A DNA stretch of 64,000 bases from Candidatus Meridianibacter frigidus (lineage in GTDB: Bacteria; Vulcanimicrobiota; Vulcanimicrobiia; Vulcanimicrobiales; Vulcanimicrobiaceae): the NCBI GenBank assembly GCA_003243975.1, contig QHBJ01000030.1, positions 1 through 64,000 of the forward strand, read 5' to 3'. Below, piece by piece: positions 32,433-46,170 of the stretch (position 1 is the first letter of the stretch; each line of letters begins with the position of its first letter). A model generated the notes under the pieces. The model did not search any database. It was not told the DNA's origin and saw only the letters and a program-made list of their open reading frames with translations. Both the position numbers and the translations under genes were made by a program.

Positions 32433-35153
32433 TCACGGTTTACTTTTGCGCCCGAGTAGGCGCGAAATGAAGTTGTTGGGCTGCGTAATCGTGACCGCGT
32501 GCACGGAGTTGGCGGTACTGGCGGCGGCAGCGCGTTCCAGCCGTTCCAACCGCTGCATGTGCGCCTCACTATCTGCGCTGAGGGTAGCAACGAGTGCATC
32601 TAATTCGTTCCAGCCAGCCGGTGCGCGTCCGTCGCGCTTCGCTTGCGCGTACTCCAGTATTGAAACTGTAAAGACACGTTTGGGGCTGATCTTGCGCTGG
32701 GCCAGATACTCTTTTGCCAGCTCGACCACCCCGCGACGCTCGGCCGGGGTTTCATTGTCGGCGATCGTGTGGACAAATTGCATGGGCCGTTCTTGAGCCG
32801 CCACGCGTTCGAAAAGGTCCAGTTCGCGGTCCGAGAGCTGGCGCGAAAAAAGGCAGAGCATTTCGCTCGCATTCGAAGCTGCAACCAGCGCGATCTCTTC
32901 CGCGTGTTGCGCGCCCGAATCGAACGCCGGAACGTGCACCAACACCAGTTCACGCGGCAACTTCCAAGGCGTTTCGATAAGTACCGGATTTCGCGTGGCT
33001 TCCTCCAATGCAGATTCGATCTCCACCTCGTTCCATACGCCGGAGGGAGCGAGCGCATACGCTCGTTCGGCGGGACCGTAACGCACGTGCACCGGAAAGG
33101 CGATGGCGCCGGCAACTTCATCCGCGAGAACGCGTGAGCCGGCGATCGCGTTGATCAAACTCGACTTGCCGCGCCGCAGCGCTCCCAGCACGGCGACGCG
33201 CCATCGCGTCGGCCGCAGGCCTTTCCCGTACGCTTGCCGGTCGAAACTTGCCTGATCGTGTGCGCGCCGAACGATGTGAGGCCCGGCGTCGGCAGCAGCG
33301 ATCTCGGGTTCTCGCTCGAAAAAACTCTTGGCCGTTCGCCGCATCTGCTCGCGCTTTTCGCCGAGCGTTTGAACGGTTTTCGCAAGTTCTTCCCGCAACT
33401 GGGCAACGTCCCCGCGCTGGTGAGCTGCTCGCGAGCGCTCGATCGACCCGAGCTGGATGTCGCGCATTTGTCTGGTAACTTCTTGGAGGGCGGAGCAAAA
33501 AGAAGAAGCAATGGTTTCCAACTGTACGGCCACATCGGTTGTGAAAGCCATCAAATCGGCGCGCATATGTGGCAGGATTTCGGAGCGCAGGTCTGCGGTG
33601 AGCTCGCGTTTCATGTATGCGCCGGACGGTTTGCCGGCGAACCGTGCTCCGATATCGGAAACGAGATTCGTGCCGGGGCCGGCGATGGCTTCCAGAACGA
33701 TGCTCGCCGCAACCGCCGCATCCACGTCGCTGCTCCACAACCCGCTTGCGCCCTGAGCCCCGAAGGCTACGGCGGCGGCGTCGTTGAGCGAGAAGCGCAA
33801 AGCGGCTTCCTGTCGCGCGGCATGCTGCGCTTGACGAATGTCGTTAAGCGCCTCCGCGGAGAGCCGCGTTGCGAACTCGCCGACGACCTCCAGGAAGAGG
33901 CGGTCGATGAGGATGTTCAGGCGCGCGCGATCGCGCACTCGAGCGATGTCCGCCGTGTCAAGCGCCTGCGTAAGTTCGGCCTGCATCTCCCTGCAGAGAA
34001 CATCCGCCTGCTCGGCGGCGTGTTGACGGCGCGCGGCCGCACGCCCGGCCACACCGTTAGATTGAATACGCAGATTTTGTTCGAGCGCTTCGATTTGCGG
34101 ACGCGCGCTGGCCTCGGCCTGCTCGAGTTCCGCGGTATCTCGAGAGAGCATCTCAACGTCTGCCTGCAGTCGCGCTACGACATGGTCGAGGATCACCGCG
34201 CTCTGATCGTACGCGCGCCGCAGACGCGCACGTCCGGTCGTGGCAATCAACGAGGCATCCAGCGCATTGACGAAGAGGTCGAAACGGCTTTGGGCGACCA
34301 GAGCCGGCGATTCTTCGAGTATCCCGCGAACGAATGAGAGAGCGGAGAGTGCGTAGACGTACGTGCCGGGCGCATGTACCGCTGCCAGCGCAGCGATGCG
34401 ATCGCGGGCGTGCTCCCAGTCGGCACGCCCGTCGTCTTGCACCGACTCCCATAAATCGATCTTGGTTTGGACGATGAAGATCGAGTCCAGATGCCCGCGT
34501 ATGATTCCAAGGAACGAGGCGTCGCCTTCGGTGAACGGCTGCTGCGTATCGATCAAATAGAGCACTGCGTCGGCGCTGGGCAAGAATTGAAGGGTTGCGC
34601 GGCGGTGAGCCGGATTCACCGAGGCCAAACCGGGCGTATCGGCTATTGTAAATCCGCGTTGAAGAAAGGGCGAATCGACGCGGACCATTACACGTTCGGG
34701 CACATCCCGCTGCTCTTGCGTCGCATCATGCAGCTTCCCGGTCTCACCGCGTCCCACGGAAATGAAACGCGAAAGGCGGTCGAGCGCAACACGCTCCGTC
34801 CGTCCGCCTGAGTAGTGCGCGTAGGCTTCGTCCTGCTCACCGAAATCTAGTTCGGTGATCGCCGCCGTCGATGGGTTGATATCGGTTGCCAGCAACCCGG
34901 CGATTCGTTTTGCGTTCCCGGCTTGCTCGTACCAAAACTTGCCCAAGAGCGCGTTTAGCAGGAACGACTTGCCGCTGGAGAATTCGCCCACTACGGCTAA
35001 GACAAACTTGCCGCGCTCCAGCCGGGTGCGTGCCGCGACGATCGCTTCTTTTGAACCGGCGTCCGCGAGCAGTTCGACTTCGCGCATCGTCCCCGCCAGC
35101 GCGTCGCGCGCGGCTTCGTAACGGCGCATTGCATCTTGGTCGACCGTAGTCAC
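32433..35153 (-). CDS. bacterial dynamin-like protein with two GTPase-type P-loops
   Basis: A 906-residue dynamin-superfamily protein, probably acting at membranes. The N-terminal GTPase is canonical: P-loop GEFSSGKS (56-63), switch Thr in NPSTAAIT, DTPG (172-175) and TKID (230-233). A long helical stalk-like region (about 290-640) follows, with a short hydrophobic Ala/Gly-rich stretch that could be a paddle. A second G-domain starts near 652 with P-loop GALRRGKSS (657-665). Its G3 (VPAFDSG) and G4 (HTIADNE) positions are degenerate and no second stalk follows. B. subtilis DynA (about 1190 residues) is a true tandem; this is a shorter variant. GTG start at 35153; ATG at residue 9 is an alternative. 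Confidence 0.8.
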   Translation of the reverse strand: MTTVDQDAMRRYEAARDALAGTMREVELLADAGSKEAIVAARTRLERGKFVLAVVGEFSSGKSFLLNALLGKFWYEQAGNAKRIAGLLATDINPSTAAITELDFGEQDEAYAHYSGGRTERVALDRLSRFISVGRGETGKLHDATQEQRDVPERVMVRVDSPFLQRGFTIADTPGLASVNPAHRRATLQFLPSADAVLYLIDTQQPFTEGDASFLGIIRGHLDSIFIVQTKIDLWESVQDDGRADWEHARDRIAALAAVHAPGTYVYALSALSFVRGILEESPALVAQSRFDLFVNALDASLIATTGRARLRRAYDQSAVILDHVVARLQADVEMLSRDTAELEQAEASARPQIEALEQNLRIQSNGVAGRAAARRQHAAEQADVLCREMQAELTQALDTADIARVRDRARLNILIDRLFLEVVGEFATRLSAEALNDIRQAQHAARQEAALRFSLNDAAAVAFGAQGASGLWSSDVDAAVAASIVLEAIAGPGTNLVSDIGARFAGKPSGAYMKRELTADLRSEILPHMRADLMAFTTDVAVQLETIASSFCSALQEVTRQMRDIQLGSIERSRAAHQRGDVAQLREELAKTVQTLGEKREQMRRTAKSFFEREPEIAAADAGPHIVRRAHDQASFDRQAYGKGLRPTRWRVAVLGALRRGKSSLINAIAGSRVLADEVAGAIAFPVHVRYGPAERAYALAPSGVWNEVEIESALEEATRNPVLIETPWKLPRELVLVHVPAFDSGAQHAEEIALVAASNASEMLCLFSRQLSDRELDLFERVAAQERPMQFVHTIADNETPAERRGVVELAKEYLAQRKISPKRVFTVSILEYAQAKRDGRAPAGWNELDALVATLSADSEAHMQRLERLERAAAASTANSVHAVTITQPNNFISRLLGRKSKP

Positions 35154-40347: not shown

Positions 40348-41124
40348 TCAAGTGGCGACGCGCAAGGGGAAAACCCGCAATTTGCCGCTGGGGGAGAGCA
40401 CCGCTTCCATTGAGAGGCCGTAAGCGCGCTCAAACCAGCCGGCGTTCAGCACTTGGTCCGGCGTGCGGCACAGCGTGAACTCGTTCCAGCCAAGGAGCAA
40501 GAAGCGATCGGCGTACTCGAAGGCCTCGTTGGCGTCGTGCAGGACGCAGGCAACGCACTTGCCCGAGTGCGCCTGATCGCGCAGTAATCGCAAGATCTCT
40601 TGCGCCGCGCGTAAGTCCAAATGGCTGGTCGGTTCATCCAGCAAGAGCGCGGGGGCGCCTTGCGCGAGCGCCATTGCAATCCATGCGCGCTGACGCTCGC
40701 CGCTGGAGAGCGTGTCGAACGAGCGCTCCGCATAATCGTACAAACCGACGGCGCGCAGCGCGTCGTTTACGCAGGCGCGATCGGCGTCCTCTTCGCGCCA
40801 GTCCCACCACGAATGGTAGGCATAGCGTCCGGTTCCCACGATCTCCCGCACGCTGAGCATCTCCGAACCAATCTCCTCGCTGGCGATGAAGGCCATGCGG
40901 CGCGCGCGCTCCGCCGGGTTGAGTTCGCTTATCGCGATGCGGTTGTGGGTGACGGTCCCCGCGGAAGGTCTGTGCAGGCCAGCAATGGTGCGCAGCAGCG
41001 TTGTTTTTCCGCACCCATTGGGTCCGAGAATGGCAAGCAGTTCGCCGGATGCGATCGCAAAATCCAACTCGTCAAACAATCGCCTGGTGCCCACACTCAA
41101 TGCCAAGCGTTCGACGGTGATCAC
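40348..41124 (-). CDS. btuD: cobalamin/heme-type ABC transporter ATPase
   Basis: A 258-residue ATPase: Walker A GPNGCGKTT, signature LSSGERQRAWIAMAL, Walker B LLLDEPTSHLD and switch LHDANEAF. The start is GTG at 41124, overlapping the permease stop by GTGA; the open frame further upstream is antisense-like and lacks homology. Grouping with a FecCD permease, TonB receptor and B12 riboswitch points to cobalamin. Confidence 0.88.
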   Translation of the reverse strand: MITVERLALSVGTRRLFDELDFAIASGELLAILGPNGCGKTTLLRTIAGLHRPSAGTVTHNRIAISELNPAERARRMAFIASEEIGSEMLSVREIVGTGRYAYHSWWDWREEDADRACVNDALRAVGLYDYAERSFDTLSSGERQRAWIAMALAQGAPALLLDEPTSHLDLRAAQEILRLLRDQAHSGKCVACVLHDANEAFEYADRFLLLGWNEFTLCRTPDQVLNAGWFERAYGLSMEAVLSPSGKLRVFPLRVAT

Positions 41125-42098
41125 GCGAACCGGCGGCCTTCGTGCAAATAGAGATACAGAAACGTCGGCACGCCGATGAAAGCCAGCAGCACGCCGATCG
41201 GGATCTCGACCGGTGCAAAGAGCGTGCGGCTTACCGCATCGGCAACGGCCATGAATGCCGCCCCAAAGAGCGCCGCCAGGGGAGCCAAGCTGCGAGCGTC
41301 TGTACCGATGATGCGCCGCGCCATATGCGGAACGATCAGTCCGACGAAGCCGACGATGCCGCACAATGCAACGGCACTGGCAGTAAGTAAAGCGGCGGAA
41401 GCCAGAATGACCCACTGCGCACGAGACACATCAACCCCCACCGCGCGTGCGCGCGTATCTCCCAGCCGCAGAGCATTCAGCGCAGGAATGCTCAGAATCG
41501 CGAGGAGCAGGCCGATGACCAAGTAAGGAGCGGTCCACGTCAAGTCATGCCATCCACGGCCGGCGAGCGATCCCGCCAGCCACGCGATGATCGTTTGCGC
41601 GTAGCCGCCTTGCTGCAAGCGCGTGAGAACGAGTGCGACGAAGGCCGAGAAGAGCGCGGAGAGCGACACGCCCGCCAAGATCAAGCGGTTCGCGTCGATG
41701 CCGGTTCCACGGCGAGCAATTGCCGCGACCAGGATCGCGGTAGCCAAGCCCGCGAGAAATCCAAGTGCGGGAACAAATGGCGCTGCGACACCTGCAGCCA
41801 CCGCAACCGAGATTGCCGCCGCCGCACCCGCGCTGACGCCCGTGAGATACGGATCCACAAGCGGATTGCGCAGCATACCCTGCAGCAACACGCCCGCCAG
41901 CGCCAGCGCCGCACCCACGACGGCGGCGATGCACGCGCGTGGAATTCGCAAGGTCCATACGATGGTGTTCGCGTCTGAGTTCGCCTGCGGGTGCAGCAGC
42001 GCATTCAGCACGTCACTGGGGGAAAGAAAAGCGGCGCCCACGCCGACGCTCAACATCAGCGCAAGCGCCACAAATGCGGCCGCGCAGAGCAGTTTCAT
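41121..42098 (-). CDS. btuC: FecCD/BtuC family ABC permease
   Basis: A 325-residue permease of about ten helices. FecCD signatures are RIPRACIAAVVGAALALAG near the N-terminus, GMLRNPLVDPYLTGVSAGA, and the cytoplasmic GIVGFVGLIVPHMAR. The ATG at 42098 matches the family start. It lies 13 bases downstream of the receptor gene and is coupled to btuD. Confidence 0.9.
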   Translation of the reverse strand: MKLLCAAAFVALALMLSVGVGAAFLSPSDVLNALLHPQANSDANTIVWTLRIPRACIAAVVGAALALAGVLLQGMLRNPLVDPYLTGVSAGAAAAISVAVAAGVAAPFVPALGFLAGLATAILVAAIARRGTGIDANRLILAGVSLSALFSAFVALVLTRLQQGGYAQTIIAWLAGSLAGRGWHDLTWTAPYLVIGLLLAILSIPALNALRLGDTRARAVGVDVSRAQWVILASAALLTASAVALCGIVGFVGLIVPHMARRIIGTDARSLAPLAALFGAAFMAVADAVSRTLFAPVEIPIGVLLAFIGVPTFLYLYLHEGRRFA

Positions 42099-42111
42099 CT
42101 CGGGCCGGAGG

Positions 42112-44037
42112 TTACCGGTTCGATAACTCCAGAACGAGGGCGCGGCCGGGTTGCGGGAATTCGGGCACGTCTTGGATGGCTTCGTTGCCCAAATTGTAGG
42201 TGCGCAGCGAGAGCACCGCATCTTTGGAAAGCCGCATCCGCACGAAGGCATCCACGCGCGTATATGCCTCTGCGTCTCCAAAGCCGAAGTGCCGTAGACC
42301 CTGGTTGCGAGCGATGATTCCGGCGCTCTCCACGAACCTATCCGGCTCGCCGCGGAAGCCGAGTTCGGCGGTGACCGACAGAACCGGGCCGGCACCGGAA
42401 AGCCGCGTGTCAGCGTTGGTCGCCGCATCGCTGCCTGGGCAGACGAAAGTCTTTGGGTCCTGGTGCAAGCAGAGGGCGCGATAAAGATCGGTGGCGCTCG
42501 CGCGCGCGTAGACGCCGTGAACCGGAATTGTTTGCAGCTGCGCGACGAAGCCAGCAATCGAAGCGCGCTGAATATTCTGCGGGGTGAACGTTTGGTCCAG
42601 CGCGATCAAATTATGACTGCTGCTGGAGAACCAGCCTAATGACGCGCCGCCGAGAACATTTGGAGCGAGCAGGGTGATGTCGCCAACGCGGGTTCGTTCG
42701 GGCTTCAGCGTGGGATTCGAGAAGCCGGGAAAGTAAAGTTCGGCCGCGTTGGGTGCGCGGAACGCTGTTGCATAATTGGCTTTGAGCGTCATCGCCGGCG
42801 ATAGCCGCGCGACTCCCCCCAGCGAAGGCGAGAACTCCCTCCCTTGGCCGCCGTCGCGCTCCGCGCGTAGGCCGGCATAACCGCGCACGACTGAGCTGAA
42901 GATCCAGTTCTCCTGAAAGTAGGCGCCGGTTTGCGCGAAGCCATGGGTTGAAATGCTGGTGGGTGTTCCATTACCGTCGTCAACGCGCGCGACGCCGCGC
43001 GCGAGATCGAAGCCGTAGATGAACCGGCTGCGCGCTTGCGTGACCACGTTGCGAAAACTCACCTGCGCCCGGCCTTCGCTCCCGTAGGACGCAAACGGCG
43101 GGGGCGGCGTAGCGCCGGGGGCGGGAGCGTTGAAACAAGTTGGGTCAACCGGCGTGTTGCAGCGAAACTCCAGCTGCTGCAACGTCCCGCCAAACTGCAG
43201 GGTGGTGACGGCATGGTCGCGTTCGTGGGTGAGCGAGAGTTCGATGTCTTTATCCAGCGTGTTCTGGCGTGACGTCGCGGAGACAAATCCGAGCGGGCCG
43301 GGGGCTCCCAGGTGATGGTCGGAGATACCGCCGGAGAGTTCGGCATTCAGCCCACCGAGCGGTCGTTCAAAGACGAATCGCGCATCGGTCGTGCGCGAGT
43401 CCGCGTTCATTTCGCTGCCCCCCGGAAAGGCGAAAGTATTTCCGCCGACCGCGCGCTCGAAGGAAAAATTTCTTGACTCCACGCGTACGAGTTGGTCGCC
43501 GAATGTTCCCGAACGCAAGTCCACGGTTGGTTGCCCCTGCAGAGGATGCGTGATGATATTGACCACCCCGCCGATGGAGCGGCTGCCGTAAAGTGTCGAG
43601 CCGCCGCCTTCGACCACCTCGATTCGCTCCACGCCGCTGGTCGAAATTGCATCCAGATCGAGCGAGCCCGTTTGGGCGCCCCCAGCCGGTAAACCGTTGA
43701 TAAGTACGAGCACTTGATTGGTGGTCGAGCCCCGAATACCGATGCCACCGAGCGCTCCAATGCCCCCGTAGCGGAAGATGTTGACGCCCGGAATATCCTC
43801 CAACGCATCGGTGATCGTGCGAAAGCCGCGCCGGATGATGTCGGCCTTGGTCACGACGTACGTGGTGCGCGCTGCGTTGTGCAGCGTTTCGTCGGCGCGG
43901 TCACTCGTGACGACGTGCCCGATCTCGGGCGGCGTTGGTGTGGGCTGCGGGGCGATATCGGCGCGCGCCGTCAGGCTACCCCAAAGTGTGAAGAATGTTG
44001 CTGCGCAGAACGCGCGCAGCGCGATGCTTGAAGTCAT
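42112..44037 (-). CDS. btuB: TonB-dependent outer-membrane cobalamin receptor
   Basis: A 641-residue receptor: signal peptide (about 1-26, ending ARA-D), a Pro-rich linker, a TonB-box-like HVVTS (about 41-45), the plug domain (about 55-160, with IPGVNIFRYGG and GSTLYGSRSIGGVVNIIT), then a 22-strand-type barrel with the LKANYATAFRAPN and FNPTLKPE-like (FSNPTLKPERT) blocks. AAGGAAGG precedes the ATG. Substrate assignment rests on the cobalamin riboswitch immediately upstream and the btuCD genes downstream. The gene is direct evidence of an outer membrane. Confidence 0.9.
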   Translation of the reverse strand: MTSSIALRAFCAATFFTLWGSLTARADIAPQPTPTPPEIGHVVTSDRADETLHNAARTTYVVTKADIIRRGFRTITDALEDIPGVNIFRYGGIGALGGIGIRGSTTNQVLVLINGLPAGGAQTGSLDLDAISTSGVERIEVVEGGGSTLYGSRSIGGVVNIITHPLQGQPTVDLRSGTFGDQLVRVESRNFSFERAVGGNTFAFPGGSEMNADSRTTDARFVFERPLGGLNAELSGGISDHHLGAPGPLGFVSATSRQNTLDKDIELSLTHERDHAVTTLQFGGTLQQLEFRCNTPVDPTCFNAPAPGATPPPPFASYGSEGRAQVSFRNVVTQARSRFIYGFDLARGVARVDDGNGTPTSISTHGFAQTGAYFQENWIFSSVVRGYAGLRAERDGGQGREFSPSLGGVARLSPAMTLKANYATAFRAPNAAELYFPGFSNPTLKPERTRVGDITLLAPNVLGGASLGWFSSSSHNLIALDQTFTPQNIQRASIAGFVAQLQTIPVHGVYARASATDLYRALCLHQDPKTFVCPGSDAATNADTRLSGAGPVLSVTAELGFRGEPDRFVESAGIIARNQGLRHFGFGDAEAYTRVDAFVRMRLSKDAVLSLRTYNLGNEAIQDVPEFPQPGRALVLELSNR

Positions 44038-44073
44038 GCTTGCCTTCCTTTACGCGAGGTGGTGCAAAGAGCG

Positions 44074-44217
44074 GCAAATGCATCGGTATCCTGACTTGCG
44101 GATTATCGCCCTCTGCCCCAGGCCTTCCCATCCTTGCGGATTGTGACGTTGGAGCGGCTCCCCGCATACAGTGGCGCGACCGTGCCGGCATTTCACCGGC
44201 TTCCCGTGCGCATTTGC
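44074..44217 (-). ncRNA. cobalamin (AdoCbl) riboswitch upstream of btuB
   Basis: Read on the minus strand, a closing stem GCAAATGC (44217-44210)/GCATTTGC (44081-44074) bounds a 144-base domain. Inside are, in order, GGGAAGCCGGTGAAATGCCGG, CGCGCCACTGTA (matching the conserved GCCACTG box), GGATGGGAAGGCC and AAGTCAGGATACC, all classic cobalamin riboswitch elements. The btuB ribosome-binding site (AAGGAAGG, about 44043-44050) lies about 25 bases after the closing stem, so translational control or early termination would both be possible. High cobalamin should turn btuBCD off. Confidence 0.92.
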
Positions 44218-44278
44218 GAACTGCTTCTGTTGGCGCCGCAGGCGGCGCTTTCCCCCGGACGGAACGCTCGCAGCGCTC

Positions 44279-45118
44279 ATGAAATGGTTGCTGCTGGCCG
44301 CGCTCGGGGTAGGGGTGCTGAATGCTTGTGTCGGCCCCACGCAGCAGCCGAAGGCCTCCGGGAGCGTGCGGCGCGTCGTTTCCCTCGTGCCCTCGCTAAC
44401 CGAAGATCTTTTTGCAATCGGAGCTGGCGCCCAAGTAGTCGGGCGTTCACTGGCCGACGAGTACCCGCCGCAAGTTAAACGCCTACCCGCGGTTTCGACT
44501 TTCTCAAGCGTCGACACCGAACGTATCGTGCAACTGCATCCCAATCTCGTGGTCGGCATCCCCGCGCAGCAGAAGGCGACGGCCCCCCTGCGCACCGCCG
44601 GTGTGGCAACCGTCTTGATGGCCGATGATTCATTTGCCGACCTGTTCGCGGACATCGCAAAATTGGCAGCGCTCACGGGTCACTCGAATGAAGCCCAACG
44701 ATTGCAAGAGAGACTTCGTCTGCGCACCAGAGCGTTGCAATCGGCCGCACACTTCAGGAGGCCGCCGAGTGTTTTGGTTGTGATCAACGTGCAGCCGATT
44801 ATCGTGGCCGGCGCCGCATCCTACATTTCGCATCTAGTCAAGCTCGCCGGTGCGCGCAACGCGGCCCAAGGCATCTTGCAGTCCTATCCAACGCTCAGTG
44901 CCGAGGCGATTCTGAAGATGCAGCCCGACGCAATCGTAAGCGACAAGCAGACCAATCTGCGCAGCGTGTTACAGGCCTCGCCCTGGCGAGATCTGCGCGC
45001 CGTGGCACAGAATCACATTTTTATCATCGATCCGGCCGACACGCTCGAGCGTCCGGGGCCGCGCTACAACGAGGGATTATCCTGGCTCATTGCGCGCCTA
45101 AAAACAATGGCCTCGTAG
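44279..45118 (+). CDS. btuF: cobalamin-binding ABC substrate-binding lipoprotein
   Basis: A 279-residue helical-backbone binding protein. The signal peptide ends in a lipobox (VLNAC), followed by RRVVSLVPSLTEDLFAIGAG, the usual BtuF/FhuD start of the first lobe, and YPTLSAEAILKMQPDAIV in the second lobe. It is divergent from btuB. Its start lies only 61 bases from the 5' end of the btuB riboswitch, so its own promoter must lie in or beyond the riboswitch DNA on the other strand. Confidence 0.85.
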   Translation: MKWLLLAALGVGVLNACVGPTQQPKASGSVRRVVSLVPSLTEDLFAIGAGAQVVGRSLADEYPPQVKRLPAVSTFSSVDTERIVQLHPNLVVGIPAQQKATAPLRTAGVATVLMADDSFADLFADIAKLAALTGHSNEAQRLQERLRLRTRALQSAAHFRRPPSVLVVINVQPIIVAGAASYISHLVKLAGARNAAQGILQSYPTLSAEAILKMQPDAIVSDKQTNLRSVLQASPWRDLRAVAQNHIFIIDPADTLERPGPRYNEGLSWLIARLKTMAS

Positions 45119-45147: not shown

Positions 45148-46170
45148 GTGGATACGCGTGAGCGCGCCCATCCCATAGAGCCCGAGCTCGAAGAGTTCGA
45201 GGCGCTCATCGCAGCGGCCGGGGCGCGAGTCGTACAGCGGGTGGTCCAGAAGCGCGATCGCGTCGATCCGGCAACGTTAGCCGGCAGCGGAAAAGCGCGC
45301 GAGCTGGCGGCGCTTATCACAGAACAGAATGCGCACCTGCTATTCGTCCTCAACGCGCTGCGCCCGCGCCAGCGGCGCAATCTCGAGAAGATCATCACCG
45401 CGCCTATCGTCGACCGCACTATGCTGATCTTGGACGTGTTCGCGAGCCACGCGCGCACGCGCGAGGGGAAACTGCAGGTGGAGCTGGCACAGCTGCGTTA
45501 TCGTCAGTCGAACCTAATCGGAATCGGCGCGGATCTCTCGCGCTTGGGGGGCGGAATCGGAACGCGCGGGCCCGGCGAAACCAAACTGGAAACCGATCGC
45601 CGGCGGATTGCAGCCCGCATAAAGGTGCTGTCGGCGGCCGTCGAGGACGTGCGCCGCTCGCGCGCGACACGGCGTGCACGCGATGCGCGCGAGCCGTTGG
45701 TTGCTCTGGCCGGGTACACAAACGTGGGCAAATCTTCGCTGCTTAACCGGCTGGCGCGCAGCGACGCGTTGGTGGCCGATCAACCCTTTGCGACTTTGGA
45801 CCCGACGATGCGACGCGTATACCTCGGGCCGGGTACATACGTGCGCATGGTCGACACCGTTGGATTCATCAGCGAACTGCCGCAGGATCTGATTGCCGCT
45901 TTTCGGGCTACCTTAGAAGAACTGGAAGAAGCGGATCTGCTGCTGCACGTCGTGGATGCATCCAGCCCAAATCGTGAGCGGCAGCAAGCCAGCGTGAACG
46001 GCATTCTGCACGAATTGAAGCTAGAGGCGACGCCTCAGGCCTTGGTGCTCAACAAGTGCGACCTCGCGACCGGCGATCCGCCTCACCGCGGCGATGAATT
46101 GTGCGTCAGTGCGAAAACCGGGTCGGGCATCGGTGACTTGCGTGCCCAACTCCGCGAGCGCTTTTCCTGA
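45148..46170 (+). CDS. hflX: ribosome-associated GTPase HflX
   Basis: A 340-residue GTPase that splits stalled 70S ribosomes. The HflX N-domain shows DPATLAGSGKARELA and the signature GRGIGTRGPGETKLE-like block (GGGIGTRGPGETKLETDRR). The G domain has GYTNVGKS, the switch TLDPT, DTVGFI and NKCD. The GTG start is 29 bases after btuF. It is somewhat short at the N-terminus compared with E. coli HflX (about 425 residues). Confidence 0.92.
   Translation: MDTRERAHPIEPELEEFEALIAAAGARVVQRVVQKRDRVDPATLAGSGKARELAALITEQNAHLLFVLNALRPRQRRNLEKIITAPIVDRTMLILDVFASHARTREGKLQVELAQLRYRQSNLIGIGADLSRLGGGIGTRGPGETKLETDRRRIAARIKVLSAAVEDVRRSRATRRARDAREPLVALAGYTNVGKSSLLNRLARSDALVADQPFATLDPTMRRVYLGPGTYVRMVDTVGFISELPQDLIAAFRATLEELEEADLLLHVVDASSPNRERQQASVNGILHELKLEATPQALVLNKCDLATGDPPHRGDELCVSAKTGSGIGDLRAQLRERFS

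Follow-up and report, generated by a model that had tools for sequence, protein, structure and literature searches.

The 61 bases that separate the btuB cobalamin riboswitch from the divergently oriented btuF gene of Candidatus Meridianibacter frigidus probably hold a complete promoter for each direction, both of one unusual type and interleaved with each other, from which a riboswitch-led btuB transcript and a leaderless, riboswitch-free btuF(-hflX) transcript would arise. This reading comes from comparing sequences of the locus, which lies in a 64,000-nucleotide stretch of contig QHBJ01000030.1 (referred to as the window), with those of related genomes. Along the plus strand, the predicted order is btuB -10-like, btuF -35-like, btuB -35-like, and btuF -10-like box. 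Because the promoters would be interleaved, RNA polymerase bound in one direction should exclude the other direction. The btuB transcript would carry the riboswitch at its 5′ end, starting just ahead of the P1 stem, and the riboswitch would gate btuBCD only, after initiation and probably at translation via a Shine-Dalgarno hairpin. The btuF(-hflX) transcript would start at or a few bases from the start codon, carry no sequence antisense to the riboswitch, and stay outside riboswitch feedback, with btuF expression presumably independent of B12. Competition for start-up, not pairing, is the probable relation between the two transcripts; interference between two RNA polymerases at initiation is possible, and pairing of the riboswitch with a btuF leader is not likely.

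The riboswitch was identified with cmscan as a Cobalamin match (RF00174) at positions 44206-44084 of the minus strand, scoring 68.8 bits (E = 7e-15) against a gathering score of 31.5, and is a single copy by cmscan both in the window and in the 1.95-Mb genome. The P1 arms read from the sequence, GCAAATGC (44217-44210) and GCATTTGC (44081-44074), form the closing stem and widen this span to the aptamer listed in Table 1. The B12 box AAGTCAGGATACC is present, and btuB lies downstream of the match. The gap to the btuF start codon runs from 44218 to 44278, and the first-pass annotation, which had put the riboswitch 61 bases from the btuF ATG, is exact in its coordinates by both cmscan and P1. Neither a sigma70-consensus promoter (TTGACA-N16-18-TATAAT-like) nor an intrinsic terminator was found in 43700-44700.

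Table 1. Features of the btuBCD-btuF-hflX region, in positions of the window
Feature	Position	Strand	Remarks
btuD-like ABC ATPase	40348..41151	-	5′ limit uncertain
btuC-like FecCD permease	41121..42104	-	5′ limit uncertain
btuB, TonB-dependent receptor	42112..44037	-	Riboswitch-led; plug and barrel domains; ATG 44037
CCTCGCGTAAAGG, small conserved hairpin with btuB Shine-Dalgarno	44047..44059	-	Putative expression platform
Cobalamin riboswitch aptamer, including P1	44074..44217	-	
Predicted btuB transcription start	44219..44222	-	From distance to -10-like box
Putative btuB promoter, -10-like box GCCAAC	44229..44234	-	Two-block motif fit
Putative btuF promoter, -35-like box GCAGGC	44238..44243	+	Between the two btuB boxes
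Putative btuB promoter, -35-like box GGGGAA	44250..44255	-	Family consensus CAGGAA; window copy a weaker match
Putative btuF promoter, -10-like box ACGGAA or GGAACG	44259..44264 or 44261..44266	+	12-14 bases before ATG; alternatively a weak Shine-Dalgarno
btuF, cobalamin-binding lipoprotein	44279..45118	+	PF01497 (Peripla_BP_2); lipobox LNAC; best start ATG 44279
hflX	45148..46170	+	Close 3′ of btuF, same strand

Conservation in relatives had been proposed as a check on the first-pass reading, and the arrangement is indeed conserved. We surveyed 99 genomes of the same family, mostly Candidatus Eremiobacterota MAGs of uncultured soil bacteria, picking the btuF start codons of these relatives by geometry. 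A cobalamin riboswitch is present in 94 and a btuF homologue in 92, and in 65 of the btuF-bearing genomes, belonging to 23 genera, btuF stands close to the riboswitch in head-to-head orientation. All but one of these divergent loci (64/65) have a btuB homologue 3′ of the riboswitch. Four genomes of a sister family within the same order show the identical divergence. Judged by this recurrence across genera and families, the head-to-head placement is more than chance. Other family members have a cobB- or cobU-like B12 gene (judged from sequence) or some other gene between btuF and the riboswitch. In the neighboring order of the class, represented by 10 genomes, the genes are arranged riboswitch-btuC-btuD-btuB-btuF on one strand; other classes of the phylum often have btuF directly 3′ of a riboswitch. 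Because the riboswitch operon of this sister order ends with btuF, the facing position of btuF looks to be a derived state in the order of the window genome. We found no description of the divergent btuF/riboswitch-btuB arrangement in the open-access literature, which does not prove its absence. On the other side of btuF, hflX, encoding a ribosome-rescue GTPase, is the same-strand 3′ neighbor in 58 of the 63 relatives with enough sequence; btuF may therefore share a transcript with a housekeeping gene. At three loci of genus g35 (L085, L096, and L069), the stretch of the btuF frames from the riboswitch DNA to the signal peptide contains no ATG, GTG, or TTG, and no hflX was found behind btuF; the G080 copy has an in-frame TAG.

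On the btuB strand, a two-block motif fit covering 75 bases 5′ of the GGGAA box in 73 loci of 25 genera returned CAGGAA-N14/15-NSNWAN, with box 1 near -50 and a score of 115 compared to 21 to 25 for shuffled sequences. This bipartite element, CAGGA-N17-CGWA-like and not TTGACA/TANNNT, is located at -45 to -60 of the GGGAA box; nearly every one of these riboswitches has it upstream, at a constant distance. It keeps to the riboswitch even where a cobB or cobU gene separates the riboswitch from btuF, and it also precedes cobalamin riboswitches of the sister order and many others with a co-directional upstream gene. By these positions, the element is part of the riboswitch transcription unit, and we infer that the btuB transcript starts a few bases ahead of P1, within the gap. 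The element ends about 12 to 17 bases before P1, in keeping with the earlier proposal that this transcript starts within about 60 bases, which was given alongside a start inside btuF.

The btuF strand carries a unit of the same type. An independent fit there gave GCAGGC-N16/17 followed by a GAA-type box (score of 106, compared to 24 to 27 shuffled), and a model trained solely on the btuB strand scored 137 on the btuF strand, compared to 46 (SD, 10; maximum, 75) for 100 shuffles, with its sites clustering at one position. Across relatives, the box ends 10.4 bases (SD, 2.7) before the btuF start codon, or 14 bases in the window, while its distance to the riboswitch has an SD of 11.4. As gap length changes, the btuF unit shifts with the start codon and not with the riboswitch, and the btuB and btuF units, which interleave in most genera, are mostly offset by 18 to 22 bases, with zero or negative offsets in some genomes of g5 and g37. 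An opposite-strand AGG occurs in the btuB spacer in 15 of 23 divergent genera but, among genera whose upstream gene is co-directional, in only 1 of 8 (P = 0.015), with 28% expected from shuffled spacers. The btuF Shine-Dalgarno is weak (-3.5 kcal/mol, compared to -7.1 kcal/mol for btuB), and several other genes of the window also have a weak match. Because the box is tied to the codon at about 10 nt and the Shine-Dalgarno is weak, btuF is most likely leaderless or nearly so, with transcription beginning at or a few bases from the codon and no antisense leader. GGAAAG before btuF is a possible weak ribosome-binding site. The main local weakness is that the window boxes (GGGGAA and GCCAAC; btuF-strand score of 3.3) are weaker than the family consensus, and in about one-fifth of the loci, chiefly part of g5 and g35, a clear btuF-strand unit close to the riboswitch, or a normal start codon there, is lacking. 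A second cobalamin riboswitch in one genome (G001; locus L151) faces a btuC-like gene and has the same opposite-strand GCCTGC motif.

The first-pass annotation had instead required btuF to be transcribed from riboswitch DNA and had suggested that an antisense btuF leader might pair with the riboswitch, which would put the btuF promoter inside the riboswitch DNA or btuB. The gap is just 61 bases, and the conservation of the riboswitch DNA itself would mask an embedded promoter, such that a second promoter there is possible. We nevertheless regard this explanation as quite improbable: a conserved, promoter-like unit on the btuF strand sits inside the gap and is tied to the btuF start codon, with which it shifts; the weak Shine-Dalgarno of btuF in the window is that of a gene needing no leader; and insertion of cobB or cobU puts btuF more than 500 bases from the riboswitch, so that no antisense overlap is kept there. 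No overlap is predicted between the two transcripts, and leader pairing is not supported. The same annotation had expected promoters that overlap genes, of which the overlap survives in another form: the predicted btuB and btuF promoters overlap each other, but they overlap no genes.

The symmetry of the gap invites other explanations. One dyad operator with a CAGG-N8-CCTG core could serve both directions through one transcription factor, the boxes being its half-sites; the core is dyad-symmetric in many genera, and the restriction of the element class mostly to B12 loci would suit a dedicated operator. We consider this unlikely, since the btuF unit moves with its start codon and the offsets vary: the units slide relative to each other (offset of 22 to -10 bases), each keeping its internal spacing and the distance to its own transcript, and riboswitches with a co-directional upstream gene retain the btuB unit only. 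We give very little probability to a reading of the conserved palindrome as an RNA hairpin that begins the btuB leader and forms an extra riboswitch domain, with the btuB promoter inside btuF. Many spacers do show inverted repeats, such as that at 44233-44248 in the window, but their folding energies are no better than those of shuffles (mean z of -0.24 on the btuB strand and -0.07 on the btuF strand), which argues that they are not RNA structure; what is conserved is a pair of boxes with fixed spacing. Interleaved promoters thus remain our preferred reading.

Which factor would recognize such promoters can be approached through the distribution of the element. Ordinary promoters are in use in the family: TTGACA-N16-18-TANNNT exceeds the reversed control several-fold in most of its genomes, and the window genome has a TTGACA-N17-TACGCT promoter at its TPP riboswitch. 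CAGGAA-N14/15-GCGTA and AAGG-N17/18-CGTA-N9-11-ATG were not above the reversed-pattern controls genome-wide, and unit matches showed no enrichment before start codons in the loci compared; the element class is mostly confined to B12 loci. Because the B12 element differs from TTGACA/TANNNT and, in the exact patterns tried, is not enriched genome-wide, it may belong to an alternative sigma factor or to a regulator, and its boxes might be regulator sites instead of core promoter elements. A more speculative extension, which we put forward only tentatively, is that the CAGGA-N17-CGWA-like element is recognized, in this order of Eremiobacterota, by a dedicated regulator of B12 genes or an alternative sigma factor and would co-drive the riboswitch operon and btuF from both strands, restoring at initiation the coordination lost when btuF left the operon. 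A sigma54 site (GG-N10-GC) was not adopted, the recurring core being GG-N11-GC; an upstream peptide with its Shine-Dalgarno at the CAGGA box was set aside for want of a consistent start codon 3′ of the box, and a general promoter class was rejected because the exact patterns tried are not enriched genome-wide. At TPP riboswitch loci (L188 to L217), some genera have TTGACA promoters, and in others (g12, g19, g21, and g32) AGGA-type boxes occupy the same (-35) place, hinting at promoter-class switching and weakly suggesting that the element class is not confined to B12.

Compared to cobalamin riboswitch (RF00174)-btuB systems, the locus is alike in its aptamer core, P1, B12 box, and place ahead of btuB, and also in a downstream Shine-Dalgarno-bearing hairpin and no terminator; it differs in that btuF is outside the predicted riboswitch transcript and faces the riboswitch, and in its non-consensus putative promoter. 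Bacterial bidirectional promoters have a shared -10 element and divergent starts 10 to 23 bp apart (Warman et al.; PMC12825309). Here, too, one short DNA stretch would serve both directions and one binding event should block the other, but each direction has separate boxes and the predicted starts are about 50 bp apart, which sets the gap outside that class. In antisense-acting riboswitches, such as those of Clostridium acetobutylicum ubiG and Listeria pocR, the riboswitch lies at the 3′ end of an opposing gene and its transcript overlaps that gene (PMC9943018). Although the btuB riboswitch likewise adjoins an opposite-strand gene, the 5′ ends face away, btuB is read away from btuF, and no overlap is predicted, so the locus is not of that kind. 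Overlapping divergent promoters of neighboring operons in general have similarly interleaved elements with mutual exclusion expected, whereas here one arm is riboswitch bearing, the other is predicted to be leaderless, and the state is kept across the order. The layout is testable: a riboswitch operon and a detached partner gene would share a control region in which the riboswitch acts on one transcript and promoter competition couples both. Divergence across the order, set against a sister order with btuF inside the riboswitch operon, provides a natural before-and-after comparison, and the non-sigma70-like element that recurs at the B12 riboswitches of this uncultured phylum offers a starting point for finding an unknown sigma factor or regulator.

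The riboswitch itself offers a candidate mode of control. The Shine-Dalgarno hairpin has its strict form in 37 of the 65 loci, with a CCTCGC..AAGG core found by eye in nearly all others, and the aptamer loop GGTCGCGCC is invariant in all 65. The hairpin loop CGCG could kiss this aptamer loop, and the conserved hairpin together with the invariant loop suggests translational control of btuB by loop-loop pairing. The free fold of the btuB leader (z of -0.20) is uninformative as a measure of ligand-dependent control. Twelve of the 65 btuB riboswitches are cut down, with 52 to 68 nt from GGGAA to the B12 box compared to 99 to 143 nt in the others (L115, L119, L123, L116, L122, L106, L100, L094, L092, L085, L096, and L069, of g5 and g35); L157 is also of this form. 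The long arm is swapped for a short hairpin, for example, GCGGGAGACCCGC, and the conserved loop and Shine-Dalgarno hairpin are retained. Because their lengths differ, the cut-down riboswitches suggest several independent deletions and are possibly a compact form of cobalamin riboswitch. A distant relative in the phylum (G112), with five cobalamin riboswitches in total, has two of them head to head and 27 nt apart on contig C32, at 34640-34834 on the minus strand and 34862-35061 on the plus strand.
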